A DNA stretch of 27,494 nt, from the IMG/VR virus record IMGVR_UViG_3300001213_000192, positions 1 to 27,494 of that record, one strand, 5' to 3'. This DNA comes from a virus. The notes under the pieces are model-generated. The model was not told the DNA's origin and made no database searches. It was given only the letters and a program-made list of their open reading frames with translations. Shown in pieces: positions 2,200 through 26,718 of the stretch (position 1 is the first letter of the stretch; the number at the start of each line of letters is the position of its first letter). The position numbers and the translations under genes were made by a program.

Positions 2200-2426
2200 G
2201 TAACTTACTTCGTGAGAAGAGCGGTATGCGTCGGTTCAGAGTTCACTTGGACGGGATACTGATTGCGAACGGGTATCGGTGTAATGGGCATTACGACGTA
2301 GCGAACCATCTGTTCCCCGGCCCTGATGGGTTCGCCAAGGTGGCAAGTGTTGACCGGACGGATGGTAAGTACGAGTTGGTGCTGCTAGAGTACGACAACG
2401 CGCACATGGTCATCACGCCGCTGTGA
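2196..2426 (+). CDS. Hypothetical protein, 76 aa
   Basis: Starts in an ATGA overlap with the large terminase stop and ends in a GTGA overlap with a possible next small gene. I do not recognise the protein. It looks globular and soluble, with alternating beta-like segments (RFRVHLDGILIANGY, KYELVLLEYDNAH) and no membrane segment. The position between terminase and portal, and the tight coupling on both sides, support a real gene; a function cannot be assigned. Confidence 0.65.
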   Translation: MSNLLREKSGMRRFRVHLDGILIANGYRCNGHYDVANHLFPGPDGFAKVASVDRTDGKYELVLLEYDNAHMVITPL

Positions 2427-2596
2427 GTATCTACGAAGACATTTGGGTAGCGGCGATGAAGAAGCACCTGTGCGGTGATGGCCGTGCTGTCGAGGAAATT
2501 TACGAGGAACTGAAATGCCAGTCGATACCGAGATTGCAGGAAAAGTGTGGCGGCGGTATGAGTACCTCCGTGACAACGGCCACAACGAGTTCATAG
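2423..2596 (+). CDS. Possible small protein, 57 aa, overlapping portal start
   Basis: A GTG overlaps the stop of the preceding 76-aa gene (GTGA). The first ~33 residues read like an acidic/basic amphipathic helix (EDIWVAAMKKHL, then VEEIYEEL) and cover the otherwise empty 88 bases before the portal gene. The frame then runs 82 bases into the portal gene in another frame, where the composition becomes Ser/Thr-rich and less protein-like. Either a real short gene with a long overlap or a chance open frame. Confidence 0.35.
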   Translation: MSIYEDIWVAAMKKHLCGDGRAVEEIYEELKCQSIPRLQEKCGGGMSTSVTTATTSS

Positions 2597-4713
2597 AGAA
2601 GGCCGAGAAGTGTGAGAAGTTCTTCCTCGGCTTGCAGTGGGACCCGCTTGACTTGGCGAAGCTGCGGGCGCAGCGACGCCCCGCGCTGACGATCAACAAG
2701 ATCCTCAGCACGGTGAGCAACGTCCTCGGCGAGCAGATCTATAACCGGACGGACATCAATCTGCAGCCGCGCAGTGGAGCGCCTATTGAGACAGCGGAAG
2801 CGCTGACCAAGGTGTACCGGCAGATCAGCGACACCAACCAAGTTGATTGGAAGCGCGGCGACGTGTTCTGCGACGGCATCATCACCAGCCGTGGCTTCTT
2901 CGACGTACGCTTGGACTTCACCGATGCGATGGAGGGTGAGGTTCGCGTCGATACCCTGAATCCCAAGAACACGCTGATCGACGCCGACGCGGAAGAGTAC
3001 GACCCCGACACGTGGAACGATGTGCTGCTCACCAAGTGGATGACTTGGGAGGACATCGCGATCCTGTACAACGAAGACGACGCGGAGCTTCTGAAGGGGC
3101 GCGACCAGAGTTGGTATCAGTATGGGTTCGACAGCATCGAGCGATCAAGAGATCGCTTTGGTCCGGACACGCAGCGCGGCTATGCGGAACAGGCGAGTCA
3201 GGACATCAACGTGCTGCGCAACATCCGCGTGATTGAGCAGCAGCAACGACGGATGGCGAAGCAGCGGCATCTGGTCGATCCCGTGACCGGCGATATGCGC
3301 CCCATCCCCGATGGGTGGAGTCGCGAGAAGATCGGCATGGTCGCCAAGGCGTACGGCCTGAACGTGGTGGAGAAGCTGATCAAGCGGATCAGGTGGACGG
3401 TGATCGCGGATAATGTCGTCCTGCACGACGCGTGGTCGCCGTTTGAGCATTTCACCGTGGTGCCGTTCTTCCCCTACTTCCGGCGCGGCAAGACGATGGG
3501 TCTGGTGGAGAACCTGCTCGACCCGCAGGAGTTGTTGAACAAGGTCACATCCCAAGAGTTGCACGTGGTGAACACCACGGCGAACAGCGGGTGGATCTTG
3601 AAGGAAGGCTCGCTGAAGAACCTCACCATTGAAGAGCTTGAGCAGCGTGGCGCGGAAACAGGGTTGGTGCTAACCTTGGCCGATGTCAACGACGCACAGA
3701 AAATCCAGCCTAACCAAGTCCCTTCGGGGTTGGATCGCGTATCGTACAAGGCCGAAGAACACATCAAGACGATTTCGGGCGTCAGCGATTATCAAACAGG
3801 CGCGGCTCGCGAGGATGTGTCGGCTAAGGCTGTACAAGAGAACCTCAAGCGCGGATCGCTTAATCAGGCGAAGTCAACTGATAGTCTGAACCGGACCGAC
3901 TACATGCTTACACGCATGGTGCTGAGTCTGGTGCAGAACTTCTACACTGAGCCGCGACTGATCAATATCACGCACAACAAGATGACGGGCGAGCAAGCTC
4001 AGGTCGAGATCAATCAGCCCACCCCTGAAGGCGAGATTGTCAATGACATGACGATTGGCGAGTACGACATCGTGATCACGTCAGTGCCGCATCGGCAGAC
4101 GCTTGAGACAAGTCAGTTCGAACAGGCGATCTCACTTCGTGAGCAAGGCATTCCGATCCCCGATGATGTGATCATCGAGCATTCGTCACTGTACCGGAAG
4201 AACGACATCCTGAAGAAGATGGCCGAAGCGGCGCAGAGCGACGAGGCGGTGCATCAGGCCGAAGTGCAGAAGATGGGCGCGGAGCTTGAGTTGGCGAACC
4301 TGAAGGCCGAAGCGGCGCGGGTTGAGGCCGATGCAGTGCTGAAGCAGGCCAAGGCGCAGAAGGAAACGACGGCCACTGCCATTGCGATGAAGGAAGCGCA
4401 AGGCGGCGGCACGGATGCGATGAAGGCTCAGGCCGAGATTGAGCAGAAACAGGCCGAAGGACAGATAACGCTTGAGATCAAGCGCATGGAGTTGGCGATC
4501 AAGCGCGAGGAACTGGCTCTGAAGAAGGAAGAAATGCTCCTGAAGCAGCAGGAAGCGCAGATGGGGCTGCAGGTGAAGGCTGCGAACGCGCAAGCGGACG
4601 TACAGATCGCAGGGAAGAAGGTGCAACAGCAGGATCAGATGCACAAGCAGAAGATGCAACAGCAGCAACAGGCTCAAAAACTGAAGGCTAAACAGGAGAA
4701 ACGCAATGGCTGA
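2515..4713 (+). CDS. Portal protein (P22-like class)
   Basis: 732 aa, in the size range of the large P22-like portals. It would form the dodecameric ring at the capsid vertex through which DNA enters and leaves. The N-terminal region (FLGLQWDP; QRRPALTINKI; a segment predicting membrane-free alpha/beta core) and the central VVPFFPYFRRG and GLDRVSYKAEEHIKTISGVS segments are typical of this class. Residues from ~560 to the end form a long Ala/Glu/Lys/Gln-rich coiled coil that becomes poly-Gln-like, the barrel region in P22-type portals. The start is set by GAGGA at 2504-2508, six bases before ATG. The stop overlaps the scaffold-like gene by 8 bases. Confidence 0.9.
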   Translation: MPVDTEIAGKVWRRYEYLRDNGHNEFIEKAEKCEKFFLGLQWDPLDLAKLRAQRRPALTINKILSTVSNVLGEQIYNRTDINLQPRSGAPIETAEALTKVYRQISDTNQVDWKRGDVFCDGIITSRGFFDVRLDFTDAMEGEVRVDTLNPKNTLIDADAEEYDPDTWNDVLLTKWMTWEDIAILYNEDDAELLKGRDQSWYQYGFDSIERSRDRFGPDTQRGYAEQASQDINVLRNIRVIEQQQRRMAKQRHLVDPVTGDMRPIPDGWSREKIGMVAKAYGLNVVEKLIKRIRWTVIADNVVLHDAWSPFEHFTVVPFFPYFRRGKTMGLVENLLDPQELLNKVTSQELHVVNTTANSGWILKEGSLKNLTIEELEQRGAETGLVLTLADVNDAQKIQPNQVPSGLDRVSYKAEEHIKTISGVSDYQTGAAREDVSAKAVQENLKRGSLNQAKSTDSLNRTDYMLTRMVLSLVQNFYTEPRLINITHNKMTGEQAQVEINQPTPEGEIVNDMTIGEYDIVITSVPHRQTLETSQFEQAISLREQGIPIPDDVIIEHSSLYRKNDILKKMAEAAQSDEAVHQAEVQKMGAELELANLKAEAARVEADAVLKQAKAQKETTATAIAMKEAQGGGTDAMKAQAEIEQKQAEGQITLEIKRMELAIKREELALKKEEMLLKQQEAQMGLQVKAANAQADVQIAGKKVQQQDQMHKQKMQQQQQAQKLKAKQEKRNG

Positions 4714-5611
4714 CCAAGAAGTAGTGGATCGTGGTGACAATTTCGCGCCGACAACCATCGAAAAGGAGCCTGAGAAGGTCGCAAACACCATTGAAGAGCT
4801 GAAAAACGACCCCGAAGTCAAAGAAGTCGTTGAAAAAGGCGAAGAAAAGGCTGAAACGACGGAAGAAAAGCCCAAAAAGGGCGATTTCATCCCTCGCGAC
4901 CGCTTTAACGAGGCTGTACAGAAGGAGAGGGCTAAGGCTGAGGCTGCGCAGGCCCGAGCGAAGGATCTTGAGGCTCAGTTAGTCACCCAAAAGGTGACGG
5001 AAGATGTAGTCGAAGCGCAGAAGGCGGTGAAAGATCTCATCAAGCAGCGCAATTCGCTGCTCGCGGATGGGGATCTGGACAAGGCGGGCGAGGTAGACGA
5101 GAAAATCTTCGCTATGCAGGAAGCCATCGCTGAGCGCAAGGCTGAAGCGAAGGCTACGGCGCTGAAGGAAGCGACGAAAGAGGAAGTTCGCTACGACGCC
5201 GTGGTGTCGAGGCTGGAAGCGGAGTATCCGCAGATCAATCCGGAAGCGGAAGAGTATGACGCGGACTCCGTAGCCGAGATCCGCGCCCTCATGCGCGGGT
5301 ATCAGGCCGAAATGGGGCTGACGCCATCAGCGGCGCTTGCCCGTGCGACGAAGCGAGTGTTTGGCGCTCCCGTCGCAGCCAAGACGGATGATAAGATCGC
5401 TGAAGACGCAGGTGTGCGTCGGAAGCAAGAGGCAACGGAGCGGAACGTCAAGGCCGCTGCGGCGCAACCGGCGTCCCAAAAGGATGTCGGGCTGGATCAT
5501 GACAAGAAGGGCGGTGGCTTGGATGCCAAGACGGTCATGAAGATGTCGTACTCGGAGTTTTCCAAGCTAGGTGAAGATGTTCTGGCGAAAATGCGTGGTG
5601 ACACTTTCTAG
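4706..5611 (+). CDS. Scaffold-like capsid assembly protein
   Basis: 301 aa, highly charged, almost no aromatic residues in the N-terminal half. Residues 1-60 are acidic and disordered, followed by PRDRFNEAVQKERAKAEAAQ and a long helical/coiled-coil stretch to about residue 160; the C-terminus is Lys/Asp-rich (LDHDKKGGGLDAK). This composition, and the position between portal and capsid genes, fit an internal scaffolding protein that guides procapsid assembly. AGGAGA lies a few bases before ATG. Function is inferred from composition and order; no catalytic protease motif is seen. Confidence 0.7.
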   Translation: MADQEVVDRGDNFAPTTIEKEPEKVANTIEELKNDPEVKEVVEKGEEKAETTEEKPKKGDFIPRDRFNEAVQKERAKAEAAQARAKDLEAQLVTQKVTEDVVEAQKAVKDLIKQRNSLLADGDLDKAGEVDEKIFAMQEAIAERKAEAKATALKEATKEEVRYDAVVSRLEAEYPQINPEAEEYDADSVAEIRALMRGYQAEMGLTPSAALARATKRVFGAPVAAKTDDKIAEDAGVRRKQEATERNVKAAAAQPASQKDVGLDHDKKGGGLDAKTVMKMSYSEFSKLGEDVLAKMRGDTF

Positions 5612-13759: not shown

Positions 13760-14368
13760 ATGGCGGCGAAGAAACTCAATCTGGTTTTTCGGCAGGGCGA
13801 AACCTTCCTTCGGATTATCAGGTGGGAGACTAAGCCGTATGTCTACAAGGCAATCACCGCGATCTCCAAGGCCGCACCCGTAGCGATCACCGCTACGGGT
13901 CACGGCCTGAAGACGGGATGGCGAACCGCTATTGTCAGTGTGCAGGGCATGACGGAGATCAACGCCGTCAACACGCCCCCGCGTGACAACGAAATGAAGC
14001 AAGTGACGACAACGGGCAATGACACGCTCACCATCAACGACATCAATAGCTCGGAGTTCTCCACCTACGCGTCCGGTGGGTATCTGCAGTTTTATACGCC
14101 GGTCAATCTGGCGGGCTACACCGCCCGCATGACGGTGCGTAACCGCGTCGGTGGAACGACGCTGACGACGCTGACTTCGGGCGCTCCTGACAACAGTTTC
14201 GCTATCGACACCAACAACAATACGATTACGTTGACTGTGACGGCGTTGGCTACTGCTGCGTTCACCTTCGTATCGGGGGTGTACGATTTGGAAATGGTTT
14301 CCCCGACCGGGGCCGTCACGACGATCTACTACGGGTCCGTGACCGTGACGAAGGAGGTCACGACGTAA
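13760..14368 (+). CDS. Tail/virion protein with an FCCH-like beta module, 202 aa
   Basis: The ATG at 13760 follows the preceding stop by five bases. Residues about 32-70 (APVAITATGHGLKTGWRTAI, then QGMTEINAVN) match the phage beta module often annotated as ubiquitin-activating-enzyme FCCH-like, common in tail and fibre proteins. The C-terminal half is beta-rich (TARMTVRNRVGGTTLTTL; GVYDLEMVSPTGAVTTIYYG), as in tail-tip or chaperone-like proteins. The stop shares bases with the next ATG (TAATG). Structural role inferred from module and position. Confidence 0.7.
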   Translation: MAAKKLNLVFRQGETFLRIIRWETKPYVYKAITAISKAAPVAITATGHGLKTGWRTAIVSVQGMTEINAVNTPPRDNEMKQVTTTGNDTLTINDINSSEFSTYASGGYLQFYTPVNLAGYTARMTVRNRVGGTTLTTLTSGAPDNSFAIDTNNNTITLTVTALATAAFTFVSGVYDLEMVSPTGAVTTIYYGSVTVTKEVTT

Positions 14369-14793
14369 TGGCCCAAGCAATGTGCACTAGCTTCAAGGTT
14401 GAGCTTCTCAAGGCTCAGCACAACTTCTTGGCGTCGGGCGGGCATACCTTCAAGTTCGCGCTGTTTACGTCGAGCGCAACACTGGACGCGACCACTACGG
14501 CGTATTCCGCGACCAACGAAGTGTCCTCGGTCAATTACACGGCAGGGGGATTTACGCTCACCAACGTCGATCCGAGTTCGTCTGGAACGACTGCGTTGAC
14601 CACCTTTTCTGCGAACCCTACGTGGTCGAACGTGACGTTCACAGCCTCGCAAGCTTTGATCTACAATACCAGTGCAAGCAATAAAGCTGTCGCCGTTCTT
14701 GACTTCGGCGGCAGTCAACCTGTCACAGCAGGTACGTTCACGGTGAACATCCCTTCTGCGACTTCAACCACCGCTATCCTGCGGCTAACCTAG
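14368..14793 (+). CDS. Beta-rich tail protein, paralogue A, 141 aa
   Basis: Starts in a TAATG overlap. A beta-rich, Thr/Ser/Ala-rich protein of the kind common in tail modules. It is clearly related to the 154-aa gene at 15046: C.SFK.EL...H.F near the N-terminus, FK.AL...SATL..TTT.YSAT.EVSS..YTA.G in the middle and V.F...A.(I/L)YN towards the end. The two are probably tail surface or fibre-base components. No named family is assigned. Confidence 0.7.
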   Translation: MAQAMCTSFKVELLKAQHNFLASGGHTFKFALFTSSATLDATTTAYSATNEVSSVNYTAGGFTLTNVDPSSSGTTALTTFSANPTWSNVTFTASQALIYNTSASNKAVAVLDFGGSQPVTAGTFTVNIPSATSTTAILRLT

Positions 14794-15045: not shown

Positions 15046-15510
15046 ATGGCTAATACTGCTGCAATCTGCAATTCGTTCAAGACGGAGCTTATGCTCGGCG
15101 CGCATCAGTTCGGCAGCGTGACGATTGTCTCGCGTACGAGCTTAACTTCGCCAACGACAGACGCGTTCAAGATCGCGCTGTATCAAACTTCGGCGACTCT
15201 GAACAAGACTACGACGGTGTACTCAGCGACGGGCGAAGTGTCGAGCGCCGGATACACGGCTGCGGGGGCGGCAGTGACGAACGGCAACGCACCGGCGAAT
15301 GCATCGGACGTTACGTATTGGACGCCAAGTGCGAGCGTGTCGTGGTCGGGCGTGACGTTCACCACCGACTGCGCGTTCCTCTACAACGACACGCAGGGTG
15401 ACAGAGCGGTGGCGGTGTTCACGTTTGGCTCGCAGTCGCCTTCAGCGGGTAACTTCACACTGACGATGCCGACCAACGACCAAACGACGGGCCTGATCCG
15501 TATTGCGTAA
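15046..15510 (+). CDS. Beta-rich tail protein, paralogue B, 154 aa
   Basis: ATG at 15046 preceded by TAGGAG. Related to paralogue A at 14368 with a ~13-residue insertion near the N-terminus (VTIVSRTSLTSPTTDA). The shared core (FKIALYQTSATLNKTTTVYS) is well kept while DNA identity is clearly lower, so the duplication is old. Likely a second copy of the same structural building block. The stop overlaps the next ATG (TAATG). Confidence 0.7.
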   Translation: MANTAAICNSFKTELMLGAHQFGSVTIVSRTSLTSPTTDAFKIALYQTSATLNKTTTVYSATGEVSSAGYTAAGAAVTNGNAPANASDVTYWTPSASVSWSGVTFTTDCAFLYNDTQGDRAVAVFTFGSQSPSAGNFTLTMPTNDQTTGLIRIA

Positions 15511-15824: not shown

Positions 15825-16987
15825 TGGGGCTGACCTACAACTTCGCATCCTCTGATACAGGTGCGCCGACGATCAACAACACAGCGGGTGGGTTGATCAC
15901 GCTGCTCGACGCGTGTTTGGTCAACGGGTACAACTCCAAGACGGTCACGATTACGCGCAGCGGCTCAACAGCGACTGCAAGCTGTACGTCGCACGGTTTC
16001 CGTAACGGGCAGATTCTCAAGCACACAGGTGCGGGGCAGACCGAGTACAACATCGAAGCGCGCATCACCTACATCGATGCCAACTCGTATTCGTATCAGG
16101 TAACAGGCACGCCCGCTACACCCGCTACAGGCACCATCACTGCCATCGTCGCGCCGCTCGGGTGGACCAAGCCGTACACCGGCACCAACCTCGCAGCGTT
16201 TCGGCAGAAGGCAGGTACGAATCAGTTTTACCTCCGTGTGGATGATTCATCTGCTACGGATACGTATCTGCGCGGGTACGAAGTGATGACGGCTATCTCT
16301 ACTGGTACGGGCGACTTCCCCACCGCTGCGCTGTTAGCTGGAGGATCAACTGTCTACAAGAGCAGCAACGCGACAAATCGTCCGTGGAAGCTATGGAGCG
16401 ACGGAAAACTTTTTCATCTACTGATTGCGTCTGGGGCAACCGCATGGACGGATTCGGCGCAGGGGAGTGCATTCTCTTTCGGTGACTTCATCAGCTACAA
16501 AGCGGGGGACGCGTACAACACTTTATTGATGGCGTCCACCAGTACGAGTTCCACAGGGTCAGGTTGCTATTGGCAATCAGTAAGTAATTCTGTTGGCAGT
16601 ACGTGTTACGGATGTTATGTCGCGCGTAATGCAGCAGGCACAGGAGCAGCGTACCTATGCCCCAAAACGAACGGCGCATTTATGTCTGTTTCTAACTATA
16701 TTGGTAGTACGTCATTTACGACGAACTACCCTGACCCGGTTCATGGGGGGATGAACTTGTCGCCTGTGTTCATAGGTAATGAACCAACAACGGGATCATA
16801 CGGAATTCGTGGGTATATTCAGGGATTGTGGGGATGGATGCATCTGAACTCATGGGCGCAGGGGGACACATTCACCGGAGCAAATGGCACCGAGTTAGCA
16901 GGACGTACGTTCGAACAAGCTTCGCCATATACCAATGCCTACATAGTCTTGGAAACCTCCGACACATGGGGTGGTTTAAGTGGCTGA
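15824..16987 (+). CDS. Tail-tip/fibre-like protein with FCCH-like module, 387 aa
   Basis: TAATG start. Residues about 45-105 form an FCCH-like beta module (ATASCTSHGFRNGQILKHTG, then ITYIDANSYSYQVTG), related in pattern to the one in the 202-aa gene. The rest is Gly/Ser/Thr-rich beta structure with LRGYEVMTAIS, an aromatic FHLLIASGATAW segment and DPVHGGMNLSPVFIGNE, a pattern known in phage tail-surface proteins. Three Cys cluster around residue 260 (SGCYWQ...TCYGCYV). The end overlaps the next gene by 8 bases. Likely a virion surface component. Confidence 0.75.
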   Translation: MGLTYNFASSDTGAPTINNTAGGLITLLDACLVNGYNSKTVTITRSGSTATASCTSHGFRNGQILKHTGAGQTEYNIEARITYIDANSYSYQVTGTPATPATGTITAIVAPLGWTKPYTGTNLAAFRQKAGTNQFYLRVDDSSATDTYLRGYEVMTAISTGTGDFPTAALLAGGSTVYKSSNATNRPWKLWSDGKLFHLLIASGATAWTDSAQGSAFSFGDFISYKAGDAYNTLLMASTSTSSTGSGCYWQSVSNSVGSTCYGCYVARNAAGTGAAYLCPKTNGAFMSVSNYIGSTSFTTNYPDPVHGGMNLSPVFIGNEPTTGSYGIRGYIQGLWGWMHLNSWAQGDTFTGANGTELAGRTFEQASPYTNAYIVLETSDTWGGLSG

Positions 16988-17336
16988 TAAAGGCACACTG
17001 ACGCCGGGAGTTCGCGGGTGTAGGTATAGGGGGAAGAACCCCGGTCCTTCGTATTTCAGTAATACTAGAAATCGATGGGCCACAGACCAAACAGGTACGT
17101 TGTCAGGCACCGTCAAAGAGTCTGGCGTGGCGCAGATTGGCGTCATCGTGCGACTGTACTGGCGACCGAACGGATTGCTAGTGGGTAGTACCTTCACAGA
17201 TCAGTACGGAGCATGGTCGTTCTCAGGACTTATCAAAGGCACTGATGGCGATACGAACTACGTCGTCATCGCTCTCGATCCGCCCACAGGAACGCAGTAC
17301 AACGATGCGATCAAGGCGTTGTTGTCACCGGGGTAA
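16980..17336 (+). CDS. Small protein with Ig/CNA-B-like beta domain, 118 aa
   Basis: GTG start overlapping the preceding gene by 8 bases. The N-terminus is basic and Gly-rich (GVRGCRYRGKNPGPS). Residues 40-105 look like a carboxypeptidase-regulatory/CNA-B-type beta sandwich: GTLSGTVKESG, VRLYWRPNG, STFTDQYGAWSFSGL, YVVIALD. Such modules decorate phage tail and capsid surfaces and bind carbohydrate or protein loosely. Placed between fibre-like genes. No strong ribosome-binding site, so translation is probably coupled. Confidence 0.65.
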   Translation: MADKGTLTPGVRGCRYRGKNPGPSYFSNTRNRWATDQTGTLSGTVKESGVAQIGVIVRLYWRPNGLLVGSTFTDQYGAWSFSGLIKGTDGDTNYVVIALDPPTGTQYNDAIKALLSPG

Positions 17337-17339
17337 TCC

Positions 17340-18578
17340 GTGGCGTACTCGCCGCCGTCATATAACGCCGTCGAGCTTCTTCTAGCCGATTCGTACACCC
17401 CGCCAGCGTATAACGGGGTAGAGCTTCTTCTTACTGACGCCACCAACGTAATACAGCCCCTTGAGGGGTTTGCCGCCGCTGTATCGCAAGGCACGATCAC
17501 GGCAGGATGGTCTGGCGGAACAATCTCGCAAGCACTGACGGGGCAGAGCCTCGCGGTCAGTCGCGGCGATATGACCGCGGAAGTTACGGGTGGGGCTTAC
17601 ACACAGCCCCCGGCGTACAACGCGGTCCACATCACCTTCGCAGATGCGTACACAGTACCGGCGTACAACGCTGTAGCGTTAGAGTTTAATCTTGGTTACA
17701 CCGGCGAGAGTGGGATCGACCAAGCCCTGACGGGGCAGAGTGTAACGATCTCGCAAGGTACGCTGTCAGCGTCATCGACTAGCAGCGTTACTCAAGCCCT
17801 GACGGGGCAAAGCGCAACAGTCAGTAGGGGCAGTTTTGGTACAGGCATCGGCCTCAGTGGTCTGAGCGCCACAGTCTCCAGAGGCGCGCTTGGCACTGGC
17901 ATAGGGCTGACAGGGCAAGGTGTAACGATCTCGTATGGGACGTTGACACCGCAGTTGGGGAGTAACGTTTCCCAAGCCCTGACCGGCCAAGCTGCCACGG
18001 CCAGCTACGGCAACCTCGCCCCCGGCTTGAGCATTGCCCTGTCTGGCCTTTCTGCGGCCTTTGGACGGGGCAACCTAGCTCCGACCTACCTTGCGAGCCT
18101 CAGCGGCCTTTCTATGGCCTTTGGGCAAGGTACGCTCACACCCAGTACAAGCGTCAACGGTGGTGCAACGCTGAGTGGTATGGAGCTTACCGTAGCTCGC
18201 GGCGTGATGGCTGCAAATTCCGGTGTAGGAGTGAACGTAGTTCTCACAGGGCTGAGTGCTACGACGGGGTATGGATCGTTCGGTGTGGCGCTCGTAAAAG
18301 CCCTCACAGGGCAGAGCGCAGCAGTGTCGTATGGCACGTTGGGTAAGGGCATCGCACCCTCCTTGACAGGCCACAGCGTTACGATGTATTCGGGTATCAT
18401 CACTCCTGCGGCGTCAAGCAGCGTGACGGTGCCTCTTGTGGGTCAAAGTATGACAGCCGCATACGGCTTCATGCGCTTTGAGGGACGCGACCGAGGCGAT
18501 CTTCAGTTGTGGGCAAAACTGGCGGTCGAAGAGTTGGTGGTCCGCACCGAAGCTGAAGAGGAAGAAGCATGGCTATAA
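17340..18578 (+). CDS. Repeat protein with LTGQ-type tandem units, 412 aa
   Basis: GTG start 3 bases after the preceding stop, with no clear Shine-Dalgarno. Residues 5-30 and 87-118 carry a second repeat, (P)PAYNAVELLL/F with Tyr-Thr-x-Pro links. Residues 41-382 hold about 14 imperfect units of 18-24 aa of the form L(T/S)G(Q/L)sxTvSxGTL plus a variable spacer, a beta-solenoid or stacked-strand pattern. The C-terminus is a charged helix ending EAEEEEAWL. Probably an extended fibre-like structural protein. It shares its repeat with the 1252-aa protein at 21776. Confidence 0.75.
   Translation: MAYSPPSYNAVELLLADSYTPPAYNGVELLLTDATNVIQPLEGFAAAVSQGTITAGWSGGTISQALTGQSLAVSRGDMTAEVTGGAYTQPPAYNAVHITFADAYTVPAYNAVALEFNLGYTGESGIDQALTGQSVTISQGTLSASSTSSVTQALTGQSATVSRGSFGTGIGLSGLSATVSRGALGTGIGLTGQGVTISYGTLTPQLGSNVSQALTGQAATASYGNLAPGLSIALSGLSAAFGRGNLAPTYLASLSGLSMAFGQGTLTPSTSVNGGATLSGMELTVARGVMAANSGVGVNVVLTGLSATTGYGSFGVALVKALTGQSAAVSYGTLGKGIAPSLTGHSVTMYSGIITPAASSSVTVPLVGQSMTAAYGFMRFEGRDRGDLQLWAKLAVEELVVRTEAEEEEAWL
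17460..18485 (+). repeat. LTGQ-type repeat array 1 (~14 units)
   Basis: Tandem imperfect units of roughly 54-72 bases encoding L(T/S)G(Q/L)-x-x-T-(V/I)-S-x-G-(T/S)-(L/F) plus a spacer. The amino-acid pattern is kept much better than the DNA. Spacers of 18 aa (GTGIG type) and ~24 aa (ending SQA or TQA) alternate without strict order, suggesting several duplication events. Confidence 0.85.
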
Positions 18579-20200
18579 CGCACGCCAAGTCGAACACCAT
18601 CGGCGACTTCACGGGGACCGTCACCGTACTCAACAGCCAAGGCTCCACCGCCACGGCTAATGCGACGGACCTGATCCGCCCCGGCGATTGGAACAGCGCC
18701 CACGCGCACATCATCACGCTGTCGGGCAACACATCAAACTCAAGCGTCATCAGCGGCACCAACATCGTATGGCAGGGCGGCAACAACATTACCTTGTCAG
18801 GTAGTACCGCAGCGGATGCAGCGACTGTCGTCATCAGTGCCGGTGCGGGCGGTGGTTCGCAGACGTTGGGCATGTCCAACCTCGGCAATACCGTAGGCAC
18901 GTCCGGTGTGATCTCTGCCGCAGCCGTGCGGATGCTGTTCGCCGGGGGTAACAACATCACCCTCAGTCAGTCGATCAACGGCGCGAGCGCGACCGTGACG
19001 ATCAGCGGAGCCGCTGCGCCCACGGTGTACAGCAACACGTTCGGGATGTCGAACCTTGGCAACACGGTCGGCACTTCCGGGGTGGTATCAGCCTCGCAGG
19101 TTCGGGTGCTTTTCGCGGGCGGTAACAACATCACGCTCTCGCAGTCCACCAACGGTGCTTCGGCCACGATCACGATCAGTGGCCCCAATACCGTAGCACA
19201 GACGAATCAGTCGATGGGGTTGTACGCCTCGTCGCAGACGCTTGGGCAGTCGTCATCCTCGACGGTGGATGCTCGCAGCTTGAGCATCGTTGGATCGGGC
19301 GGCGCGTCGGTCGGGATGAGCGCAGGCAGTCTGCTCATCTACGCACCCCCTGCGGGTGGAGCCACGGGTGCGCTCACAGTTGGCGTTTCGACAGGCGGCA
19401 ATACGTCGAACGCGTCGGGGATGGTGTCGGCGCAGATGGTGCTCGCCGGGGGCAACAACATCACCCTGTCGGGATCAGTCAACGGCCAGAGCCTTACCGT
19501 CAGCATCGTTGGTGGTGGCGGTGGCGGCGCAGCCGTCACCATGTTGTCGTACCAACCCCGGCAGTTGGGCGCATCGACCACAACCGCGTGGACGAACAAT
19601 CAGATTTGGATGGCCCCCTTCCGCATCGAACCGGGGATGGCGGTGCAAGCCAGTACGTTGATGTACTTGCAATCGCTCGGCGGGACTTACACCAGTGCGG
19701 TGACGGCGGGCCACTACGAAACGATGTCATGGTGCATCTACACGCAGCACGCGACCAACAAGAGCCGTTTCGATTCGGCGTCGTCAAGTAGCTTCACTTG
19801 GAACGTGTGGAACAGTGGCACCACCAGCGCTTCCTATGCCTACAACGGGGCTACGTCATCGAGCGGCGCGACCGGCATCTTGACGCAAGTCAGTGGTGTG
19901 CGGATGATGAATATCCCGCTCAACCTCACGCTCACTGAGGGGCTGTACCTGATGGCGATGGGCCTTAGCACCAACTCATCCAACTACTCAGGTCTGATCT
20001 CGCGTTACGCTATGTACATGGATGCCCCCGCACTGGTCGCCATGGGCAGTGGGTTCGGCAGTGCGGCGGCGACCAACATGGGGTTCCAAGACGCGGGCAG
20101 TTACGGCACCACTTCAGCGGCAATGCCATCTTCTGTGGTACTCAGTGACATCAAGCAGCACAGCAATCTTGTTCCCTTCTTCAAAATGGGCGCAATCTAA
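18569..20200 (+). CDS. Tail fibre/receptor-binding-like protein, 543 aa
   Basis: Overlaps the preceding gene by 10 bases. Residues 1-45 look like a virion-attachment N-terminus (ending RPGDWNSAHAH). Four imperfect ~48-aa units follow (about 46-92, 99-147, 157-205, 269-315), each containing GNTxxxSG...FAGGNNITLS and an NGxSxTxxISG end, a pattern common in phage fibre shafts. A Gly run (316-320) leads to a globular C-terminal part (330-543) rich in Ser/Thr/Tyr/Met, the probable receptor-binding head. Ends TAATG with the next gene. Confidence 0.8.
   Translation: MAITHAKSNTIGDFTGTVTVLNSQGSTATANATDLIRPGDWNSAHAHIITLSGNTSNSSVISGTNIVWQGGNNITLSGSTAADAATVVISAGAGGGSQTLGMSNLGNTVGTSGVISAAAVRMLFAGGNNITLSQSINGASATVTISGAAAPTVYSNTFGMSNLGNTVGTSGVVSASQVRVLFAGGNNITLSQSTNGASATITISGPNTVAQTNQSMGLYASSQTLGQSSSSTVDARSLSIVGSGGASVGMSAGSLLIYAPPAGGATGALTVGVSTGGNTSNASGMVSAQMVLAGGNNITLSGSVNGQSLTVSIVGGGGGGAAVTMLSYQPRQLGASTTTAWTNNQIWMAPFRIEPGMAVQASTLMYLQSLGGTYTSAVTAGHYETMSWCIYTQHATNKSRFDSASSSSFTWNVWNSGTTSASYAYNGATSSSGATGILTQVSGVRMMNIPLNLTLTEGLYLMAMGLSTNSSNYSGLISRYAMYMDAPALVAMGSGFGSAAATNMGFQDAGSYGTTSAAMPSSVVLSDIKQHSNLVPFFKMGAI
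18704..19513 (+). repeat. Four ~48-aa fibre-shaft repeats
   Basis: Protein-level repeat centred on AGGNNITLSxSxNGxSxT. Copies 2 and 3 are nearly the same in protein (GMSNLGNTVGTSGV..) but differ at many third codon positions, so the unit is kept by selection rather than by recent DNA copying. Copies 1 and 4 are more diverged. Confidence 0.85.
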
Positions 20201-20919
20201 TGAATCCGCAAATCATCAGCAGTTACGATGGAGGTCGGCACAACGTCGATCTCGACAAAACTGTATCTCGGTTAGAGAAAAATGCTGCGTATAAGGATTT
20301 GTCCACCGTCATCATCATTCCTGCTCTCGGCAGCATCCCCACCAAAGCGGTTGCCTCATGGTGGAATATGTATACCCCGCCGAATCAGAAATGCGCCAAA
20401 CTGTTCGCTGTGGGTATGGAGGTCGGGGAAGCGTACTCGCGCACAATCGAATCGATTTTGGCGCATCCGGATTTGAAGAATTGGAAATACGTGTTGACGT
20501 TGGAACACGACAACGTACCGCCGCCTGATGGGCTGATCAAGTTATTGGAGAGGGCCGAAGCGAATCCAGACTTCAGTGCCATCGGCGGTCTGTACTTCAC
20601 GAAGGGTGAAGGCGGTGTGGCGCAGATTTGGGGGAACGTTACTGAGTTTCCGCTGAACTTCAAGCCACAGCGTCCGGTGCAGGATGCGTTGGTGGAGTGT
20701 AATGGAACGGGGATGGGCTTCACCCTGTTCAGGATGTCGATGTTCAAAGACGAGAGACTTCGTAAACCTTGGTTCAGAACGACTGCGGATACGCAGAACG
20801 GGATGTTCACGCAAGACCTCTATGCGTGGACTGACTTCAAAAAGCATGGTTATCGGTGCGCGATCGATTGCAGCGTGCGCGTCGGTCACTATGATCAAAC
20901 TCAGGACATCACATGGTAA
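20200..20919 (+). CDS. Glycosyltransferase-like protein (GT-A type), 239 aa
   Basis: TAATG start. N-terminal STVIIIPALGSIPTKAV gives the first beta strand of a GT-A Rossmann-like fold; residues 98-107 read YVLTLEHDNV, where EHDN stands in the place of the metal-binding DxD; SAIGGLYFTKGE and NGTGMGFTLFRMSMF follow, as in family-2-type phage transferases. It would transfer a sugar from a nucleotide-sugar, substrate unknown. No signal or membrane segment: cytoplasmic. The C-terminal DLYAWTDFKKHGYRCAIDCS fits the acceptor end. It is followed directly by zinc-ribbon and methyltransferase genes. Confidence 0.75.
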   Translation: MNPQIISSYDGGRHNVDLDKTVSRLEKNAAYKDLSTVIIIPALGSIPTKAVASWWNMYTPPNQKCAKLFAVGMEVGEAYSRTIESILAHPDLKNWKYVLTLEHDNVPPPDGLIKLLERAEANPDFSAIGGLYFTKGEGGVAQIWGNVTEFPLNFKPQRPVQDALVECNGTGMGFTLFRMSMFKDERLRKPWFRTTADTQNGMFTQDLYAWTDFKKHGYRCAIDCSVRVGHYDQTQDITW

Positions 20920-21170
20920 TGAGTTGCATAACTACGGGGCATGTTTCCGGCATTAGGTGGTCTACACACAATCCGGGGTCGTTCATGACGTGCGAGGATT
21001 TGTCGAGGGTGTACGCACTGCCGCAGAACGATAGACTGTTCTTCGACAACTGCCGCAACTGCGGAGCGCCGCCGCATACTCCCGGCGCGAAGTGTGTGTA
21101 CTGCGGCTCAGGCCCGACACCGCTATATCGTCAGGTAGGAACCAACAACACGCTCGGAGTTGCGCGATGA
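20919..21170 (+). CDS. Zinc-ribbon-like small protein, 83 aa
   Basis: ATG at 20919 overlaps the glycosyltransferase stop (TAATG); an in-frame ATG six bases earlier is the alternative. Residues 45-62 form a CxxC-10-CxxC zinc ribbon (CRNCGAP .. KCVYCGS). The N-terminal part (residues 1-40) is not recognised. Ends in an ATGA overlap with the methyltransferase, so the three genes are one coupled unit. Could be an adaptor or a nucleic-acid-binding helper; an actual partner is not shown. Confidence 0.65.
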   Translation: MSCITTGHVSGIRWSTHNPGSFMTCEDLSRVYALPQNDRLFFDNCRNCGAPPHTPGAKCVYCGSGPTPLYRQVGTNNTLGVAR

Positions 21171-21751
21171 AGCCGGTGAAGGTAAGGAAGCTGAAGATCG
21201 TCGATGGGCGGTGGCACGCACCGGAGGGATTGCCGTTCGCGCTCGACCTCGGCTGCGGCGACAACAAGAAGGAAGGTTGCCTCGGCATCGATAAGTTCGA
21301 AACCAAATCAACTGACTTCGTGCACGACCTCACGGTGTATCCGTGGCCGTGCGATTCAGGCATAGTGGACAGCATTCACTGCTCTCATTTCTTTGAGCAT
21401 CTGTCGGGGCCGCAGCGTCCGTACTTTATGGATGAGTGCTACCGCATTCTGAAGCCGGGATCGCAGTTGACGATCATCACGCCTGATGCTGACTCGCATC
21501 GTGCGATTCAGGACTTCACACATGCGTGGCCCCCGGTCTGCGCCGAGTCGTTCCTGTACTTCAACAAGCAGTGGCGCGAGCAGAACAAGCTGTTGCACGG
21601 CGCGTACAGTATGCAGTGCAACTTCGACTTCGGGTATGGCTTCTCGCTCGACGCCGACATGGCAGTACGCAATGCCGAGCAACAACAGTTTGCTCTGAAG
21701 CACTACCGCAACCACAGCACGGACCTTATCGTCACTTTGACGAAGAAGTAA
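21167..21751 (+). CDS. Class I SAM-dependent methyltransferase-like protein, 194 aa
   Basis: ATG at 21167 is chosen for its ATGA overlap with the preceding stop; the frame is open further upstream but inside the zinc-ribbon gene. Motif I is FALDLGCGDNKKEG; the acidic residue after strand 2 is in LGIDKFE; IVDSIHCSHFFEHL and ECYRILKPGSQLTIITPDAD complete the SAM-binding core as in Methyltransf_11-like enzymes. It may methylate a sugar or other small group made by the adjacent glycosyltransferase. No DNA-methylase catalytic motif (NPPY or PC) is seen. Confidence 0.8.
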   Translation: MKPVKVRKLKIVDGRWHAPEGLPFALDLGCGDNKKEGCLGIDKFETKSTDFVHDLTVYPWPCDSGIVDSIHCSHFFEHLSGPQRPYFMDECYRILKPGSQLTIITPDADSHRAIQDFTHAWPPVCAESFLYFNKQWREQNKLLHGAYSMQCNFDFGYGFSLDADMAVRNAEQQQFALKHYRNHSTDLIVTLTKK

Positions 21752-21775
21752 ATCCAACAACGGTAAGGGCGTTGT

Positions 21776-24700
21776 ATGGCCGCGTTTCTTAACGACACTT
21801 TTACCGATACTAATAGTACCGATATAACGTCGCACACCGGAGAAACTGGGGCGACGTGGATTCATCTATACCCCGGCGATGCTACCAATCCGACGATTGT
21901 TAGCAATCGCCTTGCGTCCCGCAACGGGACGACAGGGATGCACTGGTACCGAGCCAGTGGCGCAGCACCGTCTGTAGACCAATACGTCGAAGCAGTAATT
22001 CGCTACGCGCAGGATGGTGGCACTATCGCTTATGGAGACATCAGCCAAGGCGTGATTGCGCGCTGTAGTGGAACTGATATATCCAACATGAACATGGACG
22101 CGTATGGGTACGCGTTCGGGTGGAATGACGCGGATAAACGCTGGCAATTGGAGAAGATTCTAGCCAGCAACTACTCATCCGCGCCCATCACGCAGACCAA
22201 CACTGTCTACGATGTAACGCGGACGGTTGGCGAGTCGCGGACGATCAAGATCGTTGTTACGGGCACGACGACAACGAACATTAAGTGCTATGTCAATAAC
22301 TATCTTGTTATCGAGTACAACGATTCGACAGATCCAATTACCACGGCAGGGTATGGTGGTTTGTGGGAAATCGGGTACGCATATTCGTTTGAGTTTGACA
22401 GCATTACAGGCGGCGATCTATCCGCCCCCGATACCTCATTCCAAGGCAATGCGTTCCAGAGCAGCGCATTCCAACAGTTCGGTGGTGTCCTTGCCGTAGG
22501 CGACATCAACCAAGCACTCACGGGGCAGAGCCTTACTGTCACCGGAGACAAGCTCGGCGTCGGCCACGGACTTACTGGACAGAGTGTCGCTGTTTCACGG
22601 GGTACGCTCGGTGTAGGTCCGCAGCTTACTGGTCAGCAAGTATCGATCTCGCAAGGGACGCTAGGCGTACAAGTAGGCAGTGATGTCTCGCAAGCGTTGG
22701 CGGGGCAGAGTGCCACTGTAAGCCGAGGCACGCTTGCTGCGTCGACAGATCAGACGGTTGCGCTGACAGGACAGAGCGTCACCGTAAGTCGCGGCACACT
22801 CGGTGTCGTAGTTACTCAGTCAGTAGCCCTGACAGGGCAGAGTGCCACTGTCTCTCAAGGCACGTTGTCGCCCTCACTGAGCATCATGGTCGGCGCAACG
22901 GGGGCGCAGTCGCTCGCCCCCGCAGCGACGACTACGTACTTCTCCACCGGAGGTACGAAGGTCTTCATCAAGTCACACAACTCCGGTGTCTGGAAGGGCG
23001 ACTACTACCTCTTCCAAACAGAGTTGGGAAGCTTCGGTGGTGCCGGTAGTGGTCGTTACCGTGCGGCTCCGCAGCAAGCACAGATCTCGACAGAAGGCTT
23101 CCCCACGCTGTCGGATGCTGCGTATCAGAAGCAGAATCCGTACTTCAACGGTGCAGGGCAAACACAGACGTTCGGTCGCGGCAGCGATGCTGCGCCGAAT
23201 CAGTACTACGACGATAGCTCACCGTACTCCTACGGTGGCTACATATCGGTGGACGAGGAAGATAACGTCCACTTGATGTACACGCGCATTCGGGCGTTCC
23301 ACAGCGGCTCTCTGAATGGCAACTACGCTGACGCGCAGATTCACTTCGCATATCAGCACAGCGACATCACGACCAACGCTTACATTGGTCCTGAAGTAAC
23401 GAAGACCCACCAAGACACGCTCAATACCAACCTCAACGCCTACAACACAGGCGGTCTTGGTGTCTACGGTATCTACACCGACAAAGCGCTTATCTTCTAC
23501 ACGCAGGAGTACAACACTGCGGGTGAGAAGGCGCTAACGGGTAAGGCAGTTACCGTCAGTGGTGGCTTGCTGACCCCGGTCGGATCGAACGGCGTCGAAC
23601 TGACAGGGCGTGCCGCAACGATCAGCGGTGGCACCCTCACTCCGAGTATCAATGGTGTAACTGCCGACGCAACCGTGCAACTCACGGGGCGGTCGATGAC
23701 CGTCAGTCGTGGCACGATCATCGCGTCGGACTTCAAGCAAAACTACGTTCCTGCTGTTGTTACGCGCACCAATCGTGGAACGACGCTCGGTGGCTTGCAC
23801 AGTGCTGAACAGATCATCGCGTCGTTCACGGGCGCAGATGAAGTCTACGCCATCGAAGACTTCTTCACCGTGGTCAAGTCGGGCTACGGTGATCTGATCT
23901 ATGTAACGTATCTCAGCGGCACAAAGAAGGCACCATCAGTACCGGCGTATGTTGGCTTGGTGGTCATGGATGCGCTGACGCTGAGCGTCACTTCGCACAT
24001 CCTGACTTCGCTCGGAACGCAGCTTACTCCGGTACTAGGCACAAGCAATTACGCAGCGAATCGCACCGGCTATTGGGTCAGCGTACCCACGGCGCAGACA
24101 GTCAAGCTGTCGAACGGTACGAGTGTCACGCAGTACGTGCTTGGTCGGCACGTAGTCCACCTTAGTTGGACGAGCGGGACCAAGAATTCACCGACGCTGA
24201 CGGTGAAAGCAGGGCCGAGTGTCACAGGCGGGCGCTACCTTGTCGAGTCCTTGCAGTCGTTGGAGCAGAAGGGCGACGAGGTTTATCACGTTCTCGTCGA
24301 AGCTTCGTCGTCGTCCGCAACGGGCTTCTACCTTGAATACAACGATGCCACCACTTCTGGCGCATCGTGGACTGTAACAGGCTCTACGGTTTGGACTACT
24401 GCATCAGGGTTCAGCAGCGCGAGCTTCGAATCCGGCTTCGCCAAGGGCAAGAAGACGCTGTTCTACGGCGCGCAGCAAGCAGCAGATCCGACATCAGATA
24501 CACCGGCGCGGTCGTTCACAGCGTGGACAAACTTTTGGGCGGGGCAGCAACCGTACCTGACCGTCGAAGCGGAAGGTCGTGTTGGCCGCGTAACAGTCAC
24601 CATCGTCAACGCTATCGAACAGCAACTGACGGGGCAGAGCCTTACTGTCTCGCAGGGCAAGCTCGGTCTGGTGCAGCCGCTCACAGGACAGAGCGCAACA

Positions 24701-25534
24701 GTCTCGTACGGAACGCTGACGCCGACCGTTGGCGGCGCAGCCATCGATCAGCCCTTGACGGGGCAAAGTGTAACTGCGGCGTACGGCGCACTTACTCCGA
24801 CGATCAGTGTTGCGCTGACCGGACAGGCAGTCACAGTCTCTAAGAGCAACGTCGGTGTCGGCCACGGGCTGACCGGACAGGCAGTCACAGTCTCCAAGGG
24901 CAACGTCGGTGTCGGGCATGGCCTGACAGGGCAACAAGCGACGGTACAGCAAGGCACGCTCACCCCGACCATCGGTTACAACGTCACGCTGACCGGACAG
25001 AGCGTAACAGTTGCACGCGGATCACTTGCTGCTTCTTCAGGCGTAACGCTGGCAGGGCAACAAGCGACGGTGCAGCGGGGATCGTTCGGGGTGGGGTTGG
25101 CGGTAGTCCCGACCGGACAAGTAGCGACAGTTTCGTACGGCACGCTGACGCCGGGGATCAGCAAGGCGCTGACAGGTCAGCAAGTAGCGGTGTCCCGTGG
25201 CAGCTTCCAAGTCTTCATGGACTTGGTGCTGTCGGGTCTGCAGATCACGATCTCGCACGGCGATGTTTCCAACGCGATCTCTACAACCGTCAACGTCACT
25301 GGGGTCTATGCAACAGGCGAGGTAGGAACAGTAACAGCGGGCGACACGCTGATACCGGAGAGCGCCTACCTGTGGGTGGTCCATCTAGACGATCTGTTGT
25401 TCGTGGTGGAGAAGCCGGTCGAACAAGCGCGAGTGGAGGAGCCGGTAGACATCTACGCCACGCTGACCACAAGCGAGCTTTTCCAGAAGACGGACGACGA
25501 CGAACTGTATGCTGACGCTACACTTGTAGACTAA
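21776..25534 (+). CDS. Giant repeat-bearing tail fibre-like protein, 1252 aa
   Basis: ATG at 21776, with only a weak TAAGGG upstream. Residues 1-215 resemble a concanavalin/LamG-type jelly-roll (FLNDTFTDTNSTDITSH; WEIGYAYSFEFDSITGG). Then LTGQ repeats: array A at 248-370, array B at 587-651, array C at 951-1191. Between them are globular parts: 371-586, with SVDEEDNVHLMYTR, and 652-950, both beta-rich and propeller-like. The C-terminus (1192-1252) is acidic (AYLWVVHLDDLLFVVEKPVE; TDDDELYADATLVD). Probably a long host-contact fibre. The shared repeats link it to the 412-aa protein. Confidence 0.75.
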   Translation: MAAFLNDTFTDTNSTDITSHTGETGATWIHLYPGDATNPTIVSNRLASRNGTTGMHWYRASGAAPSVDQYVEAVIRYAQDGGTIAYGDISQGVIARCSGTDISNMNMDAYGYAFGWNDADKRWQLEKILASNYSSAPITQTNTVYDVTRTVGESRTIKIVVTGTTTTNIKCYVNNYLVIEYNDSTDPITTAGYGGLWEIGYAYSFEFDSITGGDLSAPDTSFQGNAFQSSAFQQFGGVLAVGDINQALTGQSLTVTGDKLGVGHGLTGQSVAVSRGTLGVGPQLTGQQVSISQGTLGVQVGSDVSQALAGQSATVSRGTLAASTDQTVALTGQSVTVSRGTLGVVVTQSVALTGQSATVSQGTLSPSLSIMVGATGAQSLAPAATTTYFSTGGTKVFIKSHNSGVWKGDYYLFQTELGSFGGAGSGRYRAAPQQAQISTEGFPTLSDAAYQKQNPYFNGAGQTQTFGRGSDAAPNQYYDDSSPYSYGGYISVDEEDNVHLMYTRIRAFHSGSLNGNYADAQIHFAYQHSDITTNAYIGPEVTKTHQDTLNTNLNAYNTGGLGVYGIYTDKALIFYTQEYNTAGEKALTGKAVTVSGGLLTPVGSNGVELTGRAATISGGTLTPSINGVTADATVQLTGRSMTVSRGTIIASDFKQNYVPAVVTRTNRGTTLGGLHSAEQIIASFTGADEVYAIEDFFTVVKSGYGDLIYVTYLSGTKKAPSVPAYVGLVVMDALTLSVTSHILTSLGTQLTPVLGTSNYAANRTGYWVSVPTAQTVKLSNGTSVTQYVLGRHVVHLSWTSGTKNSPTLTVKAGPSVTGGRYLVESLQSLEQKGDEVYHVLVEASSSSATGFYLEYNDATTSGASWTVTGSTVWTTASGFSSASFESGFAKGKKTLFYGAQQAADPTSDTPARSFTAWTNFWAGQQPYLTVEAEGRVGRVTVTIVNAIEQQLTGQSLTVSQGKLGLVQPLTGQSATVSYGTLTPTVGGAAIDQPLTGQSVTAAYGALTPTISVALTGQAVTVSKSNVGVGHGLTGQAVTVSKGNVGVGHGLTGQQATVQQGTLTPTIGYNVTLTGQSVTVARGSLAASSGVTLAGQQATVQRGSFGVGLAVVPTGQVATVSYGTLTPGISKALTGQQVAVSRGSFQVFMDLVLSGLQITISHGDVSNAISTTVNVTGVYATGEVGTVTAGDTLIPESAYLWVVHLDDLLFVVEKPVEQARVEEPVDIYATLTTSELFQKTDDDELYADATLVD
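22517..22884 (+). repeat. LTGQ-type repeat array 2A (6 units)
   Basis: Six units of L(T/A)GQ-x-x-T-V-S-x-GTL type; spacers run from 18 to 24 aa, some ending SQA as in array 1. The phrase VGHG followed by LTGQ also recurs in array 2C. Confidence 0.85.
23534..23728 (+). repeat. LTGQ-type repeat array 2B (3 units) between globular parts
   Basis: Three units (LTGK, LTGR, LTGR forms) lie between ALIFYTQEYNTAGEKA and DFKQNYVPAVV. They separate two beta-rich regions of the same protein, which look as if they belong to one domain. Confidence 0.8.
24626..25349 (+). repeat. LTGQ-type repeat array 2C (~11-12 units) with a recent 54-bp duplication
   Basis: About a dozen units. Units at 24815-24868 and 24869-24922 are near-identical in DNA (49 of 54 bases by eye), encoding LTGQAVTVSK(S/G)NVGVGHG twice, a recent in-frame tandem duplication within an otherwise diverged array. 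Confidence 0.85.
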
Positions 25535-25554: not shown

Positions 25555-26718
25555 ATGGACACTGCCAAGAAACAGATCAAGTCCTTCAAGGGCTTGAACA
25601 ACGTTGTCGATCCGCTTCGACTCGGCGTTGATTGGGCCGCGCAAGCCGACAACGTAGATATCAATTCGGACCAGATGATCTCGCGCTGTGACGGCTACGT
25701 ACGCAGTACTACCAATGCTGCAATAACCGGGGCGTACGCGACCAAAGACCAGAAACGGCTGTACATCATCGATTCGGGCGAACTCAGACAGGTCAATCCC
25801 GACATGACGTACAAGGTGCTGAAGACGGGGCTGAGCAGCGCAAAGGCGTGGTTCGAAGAAGTGAACGGCGTGGTGTTCTATGCCAATGGCACCGACTACG
25901 GCATGATCGAACCGAGTGGTTGGCGTCCGTGGGGGATCGAAGAGCCACAGTCGCAGCCCACGCTGACATGGGCCACAGGCAGTATGCCGTACGGGATGTA
26001 TCGCGTGGCGTGTACGTACGTCGATGACCGAGGCTTGGAGTCGTCCAACAGCTTCGTCGTGGAGACTATCGGCCAAGGGATGCTACAGATCACGAACATC
26101 CCACAGAAGGCGGGCTACTCAACCAACGTCTACGCAACGGCGTGCAATGGCACGGTGTTCATGCTGCTGCGTCCAAAGTCAGGCACATCGTGCACGATGG
26201 TCGATGAAGTCAGTCTCGGACTTGAGATCGAGTATTGGGATTTGAACGGGCCGCAGGGAACAATCGTTGCTCACTTCGGCGGGCAGATGTACCTGTCGCA
26301 GTATTTCCCATCGCAGGATTACACGGCGATCTGGTTCAGTTTCCCGCTGCATTACCATCACTTCGACTTCGGTAGCCAAGGCATCACGGTTCCCGGCGAA
26401 GTGCGGATGATGAAAGCAGGAGAGAAAGGGTTGGTGATCGGCACGGACCGGAAGATTTTCGTCTATACCGGGGAAGAACTTTCCGAACTGGCCGATTACG
26501 GTGTTGTGTCGGGATGGCACGCAACAGAGTTCGACGGCGATCTGTACTTCTGGTCGCAGCGTGGTCTGTGCACCGTCTTCCCGTTCAAGAATCTGACCGA
26601 AGAAACGGTCAGTGTGGCTCCCGGCCAGAGCGCAGGGGCGATGGTGTTGGAGAAGGATGGAATGCGCCGATACATCGTGGCGCTGCGTAAAGACGGCTCA
26701 GCTTACAACAGGAGATAG
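25555..26718 (+). CDS. Virion/tail protein (FKGLNNVxDP type), 387 aa
   Basis: The N-terminus (IKSFKGLNNVVDPLRLG, WAAQADNVDI, SRCDGY) is a pattern I know from conserved virion proteins of podovirus-like phages. The rest is beta-rich with repeated strand motifs (KRLYIIDSGELRQV; GVVFYANGTDYG; GLVIGTDRKIFVYTGEELSEL; DLYFWSQRGLCTVFP), resembling a beta-propeller or tail-nozzle protein. No signal or membrane segment. The start is preceded by a -10-like TATACT. A tail-hub or stabilisation role is plausible. Confidence 0.8.
   Translation: MDTAKKQIKSFKGLNNVVDPLRLGVDWAAQADNVDINSDQMISRCDGYVRSTTNAAITGAYATKDQKRLYIIDSGELRQVNPDMTYKVLKTGLSSAKAWFEEVNGVVFYANGTDYGMIEPSGWRPWGIEEPQSQPTLTWATGSMPYGMYRVACTYVDDRGLESSNSFVVETIGQGMLQITNIPQKAGYSTNVYATACNGTVFMLLRPKSGTSCTMVDEVSLGLEIEYWDLNGPQGTIVAHFGGQMYLSQYFPSQDYTAIWFSFPLHYHHFDFGSQGITVPGEVRMMKAGEKGLVIGTDRKIFVYTGEELSELADYGVVSGWHATEFDGDLYFWSQRGLCTVFPFKNLTEETVSVAPGQSAGAMVLEKDGMRRYIVALRKDGSAYNRR

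Follow-up and report, generated by a model that had tools for sequence, protein, structure and literature searches.

Genomic context of the repeat genes

The DNA analysed here, called the window throughout, is a stretch of 27,494 nucleotides from an IMG/VR virus record (IMGVR_UViG_3300001213_000192). Judged by its sequence, it is an uncultured KPP25-like podovirus. The portal protein was 46% identical to that of KPP25 and the major capsid protein 59% identical to that of CRPAP1904, while the portal, capsid and neck genes were homologous to those of KPP25-like relatives and occurred in the same order. An Hc3-like gene was a further likeness to these podoviruses (Kochitakasuvirus), although CRPAP1904 was without homologues of the proteins in the window's variable module. 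A repeat of approximately 20 residues, hereafter LTGQ, made up most of two genes of this short-tailed phage, A412 and B1252, and the module containing them was delimited as follows.

16980-17336, + strand: 118-aa protein with an SdrD_B / carboxypeptidase-regulatory-like domain, directly 5' of A412
17340-18578, + strand: A412, 412 aa, 14 LTGQ units from aa 41 to 366
17340-17435, + strand: A412 head, a YSPPSYNAV/YTPPAYNGV repeat pair; a second repeat family, unlike LTGQ (from the sequence)
17460-17582, + strand: A412 LTGQ units 1-2, aa 41-81 (sequence, unit search)
17598-17693, + strand: second copy of the PPAYNAV pair, aa 87-118 (self-score with the first copy, 82)
17727-18479, + strand: main LTGQ array of A412, 12 units, aa 130-380 (unit search, profile)
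21776-25534, + strand: B1252, 1252 aa, 21 LTGQ units in arrays of 6, 3 and 12
21776-22480, + strand: putative N-terminal ConA-like domain of B1252, aa 1-235 (weak PF06439 match, E = 3e-4, below cut-off)
22517-22888, + strand: B1252 array 1, 6 LTGQ units, aa 248-371 (unit search)
22889-23533, + strand: B1252 globular region 1, aa 372-586 (homologue searches empty)
23534-23728, + strand: B1252 array 2, 3 LTGQ units, aa 587-651 (unit search)
23729-24625, + strand: B1252 globular region 2, aa 652-950 (homologue searches empty)
24626-25345, + strand: B1252 array 3, 12 LTGQ units, aa 951 to about 1190; includes a 54-nt tandem duplication
25346-25531, + strand: acidic C-terminal tail of B1252 (sequence)
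25555-26718, + strand: head-closure (Hc3)-like gene, bounding the variable module (phrog_8040, E = 2.4e-21)

The run of LTGQ units in A412 was itself broken, with the PPAYNAV pair lying between units 2 and 3 and producing a spacing of 64 residues. Two Pfam families, PF17210 (E = 4.8e-4) and, more weakly, PF13620 (E = 0.01), matched the 118-aa protein without reaching the curated cut-off, and similar proteins occurred in two relatives, L155 (39% identity, E = 7e-11) and L130 (32%, E = 1e-4). The ConA-like domain of B1252 was 33-43% identical to sequences from relatives L166-L168, and homologues of the Hc3-like gene were present in 18 of 42 relatives' records.

Other genes lie between A412 and B1252. 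One (18569-20200), 3' of A412, encodes a 543-aa protein with a third type of repeat (AGGNNITLSQSxNGxSATVTIS) and was without a family match. It is followed, within the putative appendage module, by genes for a glycosyltransferase-like protein (20200-20919; weak PF00535) and a SAM methyltransferase-like protein (21092-21751), both of which may modify virion proteins.

A repeat with a fixed core and a stepped linker

The first-pass annotation of this DNA had proposed a single repeat family in both genes, with about 14 units in A412 and about 20 in B1252, the latter in three arrays. The layout and counts agreed closely with the units delimited above, and membership of both sets in one family was confirmed by reciprocal profile searches. 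A profile of A412 units recovered 19 of the 21 B1252 units, exceeding the 95th percentile for shuffled B1252, and a profile of B1252 units recovered 12 of the 14 in A412, likewise above shuffled controls. Comparison of each protein with itself gave self-similarity values of 135 (A412) and 285 (B1252), where shuffled sequences averaged 0.6 and 1.7. At the DNA level, the exact core pattern occurred four times in the window and never in 100 dinucleotide shuffles.

A 13-residue core, L-[TS]-G-[QS]-x-[VAL]-T-[VA]-S-x-G-T-[LVI], could be aligned over 147 units without gaps; glycine occupied position 3 in 146 of these and position 11 in 144. No model in Pfam, PHROG or NCBIfam covered the repeat, 13 array members returning scattered weak matches that included a single one to PRD1_P5_spike_N (E = 0.052). 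The LTGQ family is unnamed, and merits a profile of its own for the annotation of such proteins.

The distance from one unit to the next was 18, 20, 22 or 24 residues, and odd values were rare. In ten foreign arrays, 97 of 100 spacings were even; the window gave 27 of 30, and the overall figure was 127 of 133. With each distinct spacing entered only once per array, even values outnumbered odd ones by 30 to 5 (p = 2e-5). A linker belonging to a beta hairpin or strand, with its register to be maintained, would be expected to change in steps of two residues, so that a fixed core joined to such a linker would be the signature of a beta register. An AlphaFold prediction of A412 (AF2, monomer, 13 aligned sequences) was consistent with this, returning an all-beta array at a pLDDT of about 55-75 (overall 56, pTM = 0.55). 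Foldseek produced no significant match to this low-confidence model; the best match in the PDB was tapirin (E = 0.63), and the weak matches at the top, none of them significant, included the beta-helices of tapirin, HxuA and the HK620 tailspike.

Occurrence of LTGQ arrays in other phages

The exact core pattern was found in 16 stretches of IMG/VR, ten of which contained arrays of 8-20 units, while several of the remainder were unrelated single matches. Blastp agreed with the presence of one family in these independent contigs (E = 4e-6 to 1e-28). The same pattern, sought in bacterial and archaeal contigs totalling 257 Gb, occurred in 11 stretches, none of which held an array. A tblastn search of phages with the repeat arrays gave no match, probably through the low-complexity filter, and is not evidence of absence.

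Outside the window, LTGQ genes were located among head and neck genes, including those for the major head protein, the portal and the phrog_3287 virion protein. The 20-unit array of L014 was accompanied by neck genes and a capsid gene of the window's type (67% identity), which places L014 in the same phage lineage. In L014, L015 and L021 the array could be most of the protein.

Repeat proteins at a hypervariable locus

Portal searches provided 80 relatives from IMG/VR. In those that were read, the order of capsid and neck genes was kept, and the stretch from there to Hc3 was hypervariable; B1252 and most of its neighbours had no homologues among the KPP25-like relatives. Tandem-repeat proteins belonging to families other than LTGQ were often present at this position (L134, L131, L124, L137, L151, L155 and L160). 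The repeats were of the ATATSALTT type in L134 and L160, WTEANDVAAV in L124, YxxTG in L137 and ATSTTSGLTTAITLA in L151, while a GFxxTxFGTP repeat was seen at the locus in L130, L132, L134 and L160. L155 had a head, a short repeat array and a globular region, the array being a divergent one of LTGA units with a core of the same length as that of LTGQ (14 matches, against 0.6 when shuffled). In six relatives (L126, L127, L128, L129, L133 and L135), no long tandem-repeat protein stood out clearly at this position. Repeat proteins are therefore frequent here and not universal, and the lineage can do without a shaft of this kind.

A related observation concerned the Manatee Spring podovirus (L022, MW202615), where positions 1778-4774 form a plus-strand ORF of 998 aa composed of IIKQGNKVLSIS-type repeats. 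An annotated minus-strand CDS (2836-4647) overlaps this ORF and is probably on the wrong strand, since 7 nt separate the start of the repeat ORF from the plus-strand CDS before it.

One case of apparent replacement came from L132, in which a head of the A412 type (YTPPAGDEADLQFAGAYVPF...) was joined to a GFxxTxFGTP body. Alignment of the two heads scored 45, where shuffled sequences gave a mean of -9.6 (sd 8.3) and none of 20000 reached the observed score. Among relatives, therefore, an N-terminal part has been kept while the body differs, and the repeat body appears exchangeable behind the head. The gene context agreed: the L132 head gene lies 3' of a carboxypeptidase-regulatory-like gene akin to that encoding the 118-aa protein, as in the window, and the same pairing with a YTPP-head gene was present in L130, L138 and L155 (the order in L132 and L138 being read from sequence). 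The head in L130 resembled that of A412 by eye, without significance (p = 0.14). The suggestion in the first-pass annotation that the repeat acts as a portable spacer gains support from these relatives, where other repeat families occupy the same position.

In L138 (8478-10701), a contig with lambda-like tail genes, the carboxypeptidase-like gene is followed by a YTPP-head protein, which here carries three LTGQ-like LANATVSM repeats.

Movement of units within and between genes

Exact DNA matches of at least 14 nt were counted and compared with 200 synonymous-codon reshuffles in which the proteins were held fixed. Within genes, there were four such matches in A412 (0.27 after reshuffling) and six in B1252 (1.05), values that none of the 200 reshuffles reached. 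Arrays 1 and 3 of B1252 shared an exact match of 21 nt, and a recent 54-nt tandem duplication was identified at 24814-24927 (91% matches), evidence of ongoing change in copy number. These data support the movement of units within a gene. The earlier suggestion that units also move between genes fared less well; A412 and B1252 shared three matches of at least 14 nt where 0.85 were expected (P = 0.06), and the longest was of marginal significance (P = 0.04). A common, older pool of units explains this sharing as well as recent exchange does.

The alternative, that each gene took its array separately from the phage gene pool and there was no exchange within this genome, falls somewhat short of an even chance. 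In its favour, the excess of shared DNA was only marginal, units tended weakly to have their nearest neighbour in the same gene (23/35 against 17.7 expected, P = 0.08), and some window units were nearest to units in foreign contigs; however, 5.5 of the amino-acid nearest neighbours of A412 units were in B1252, compared with at most one in any foreign contig, and the two genes have an exact match of 18 nt.

A role for the repeats as recombination sites was considered and rejected; with the exception of the 54-nt duplication, units average 45-60% DNA identity and are poor substrates today.

Position of the second array in B1252

One rival reading has array 2 inserted within one globular fold, perhaps a beta-propeller of approximately seven blades, the repeats having entered a loop between blades. 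Counted by eye, seven strand motifs of the DNVHLMYT kind are spread over the two globular regions (about aa 408, 497, 570, 705, 791, 834 and 892), and once the 65 residues of array 2 are removed the interval across it (70) fits those between the other motifs. Region 1 also had weak, non-significant matches to propeller lectins (E = 0.44-0.67), and neither half (aa 372-586 or 652-950) looked obviously complete. Against this, the AlphaFold model of aa 366-962 (single sequence; pLDDT = 31, pTM = 0.22) was unusable, no relative was found that lacked array 2, and searches of IMG/VR, INPHARED phages, the PDB, Pfam and the relatives' records produced no homologue of aa 371-950. A parallel layout in L151 also weighs against insertion. 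This 1000-residue protein has seven units, a domain of 193 residues, three units, a domain of 190 residues and a long third array, and its two domains are complete, duplicated copies with 35% identity between them (E = 4e-24). By sequence comparison, it has the three-array layout of B1252 built from a different repeat, and since the layout there separates two complete domains, it is not in itself proof of insertion into a fold. On balance, insertion of array 2 is less likely than not.

Proposed function of the arrays

The reading we prefer, with a probability of roughly 0.55, is that A412 and B1252 are virion appendage proteins, of the tail-fibre-like or decoration kind, in which LTGQ arrays are exchangeable spacer shafts between globular domains. 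The sequence comparisons show the repeats and their spacing rule, their wide spread among phage contigs, the hypervariable locus with its replaced repeat families and the matching layouts of relatives; we infer that both proteins are part of the virion, that the arrays serve as shafts and that a receptor is bound. Each unit would be a small beta spacer with a rigid 13-residue core and a linker lengthened only by pairs of residues, and copies in tandem would build a shaft whose length can be adjusted. The N-terminus would serve as the anchor (the YTPP head in A412, the ConA-like domain in B1252), and stretches of shaft would alternate with globular domains that probably bind surfaces. Duplication within a gene alters copy number, and one whole repeat family can give way to another. 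No receptor-binding domain was identified; regions 372-586 and 652-950 of B1252 had no homologues in the searches. Should the repeats prove to be rods, a fixed core with two-residue linker steps would help to predict and test their structure.

That the repeats are themselves adhesive modules, binding glycans or surfaces, is improbable: where arrays of 8-20 units are most of a protein (L014, L015, L021) there is little else to bind, but the unit is small, its core is nearly invariant across unrelated phages and sibling phages swap in repeats of unrelated sequence at the same position, a combination more easily explained by a structural role than by the binding of one specific ligand.

Tail-fibre mosaicism is usually presented as an exchange of receptor-binding tips, the shaft or anchor being retained. 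In the present phages, it is apparently the repeat of the shaft that has been swapped among close relatives. The exchangeable-shaft reading might be extended to a locus dedicated to repeat shafts, in which whole families are swapped as rods under a common beta-register rule and complete sensor domains are placed at similar rod positions regardless of the repeat; this is distinctly doubtful, and if true it would represent a general shaft-exchange system that goes beyond domain shuffling at fibre tips.

Comparison with known systems

Triple beta-spiral shafts of the adenovirus and PRD1 type consist of beta repeats of 15-20 residues with a conserved glycine, alternating hydrophobic positions and variable copy number. 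By analogy, LTGQ arrays share the short repeat of predicted beta structure, the glycine, the alternating hydrophobics and the variable copy number, and may share the role of a shaft; unlike the beta-spiral, their linker varies in steps of two residues, and the only family match was the weak one to PRD1_P5_spike_N. The predicted model also likens them to the all-beta repeat rods of phage beta-helix or beta-solenoid tailspikes, from which they differ in having no significant Foldseek match and no match to pectin-lyase or tailspike families.

In the portion of PMC10684548 considered here, phage tail fibres and tail spikes are mosaic receptor-binding proteins subject to frequent domain shuffling. 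The putative appendage genes resemble those systems, as that portion presents them, in retaining an N-terminus while the body is exchanged, and in occupying a hypervariable locus of genomes that are otherwise alike; they differ in that the exchange extends to the repeat family of the shaft, and in having globular domains interspersed with the repeats. The LTGQ repeat is not described in that portion of the source. Fibre mosaicism is already known; what is new is a repeat without a name, the rule that its linkers change by two residues, and the substitution of one shaft repeat for another.

Two small, related genes lie upstream of the module (14368-14793 and 15046-15510), the product of the second matching phrog_644. 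A homologue of these proteins was present on six of the LTGQ contigs, and they are possibly partners of the LTGQ repeat proteins.
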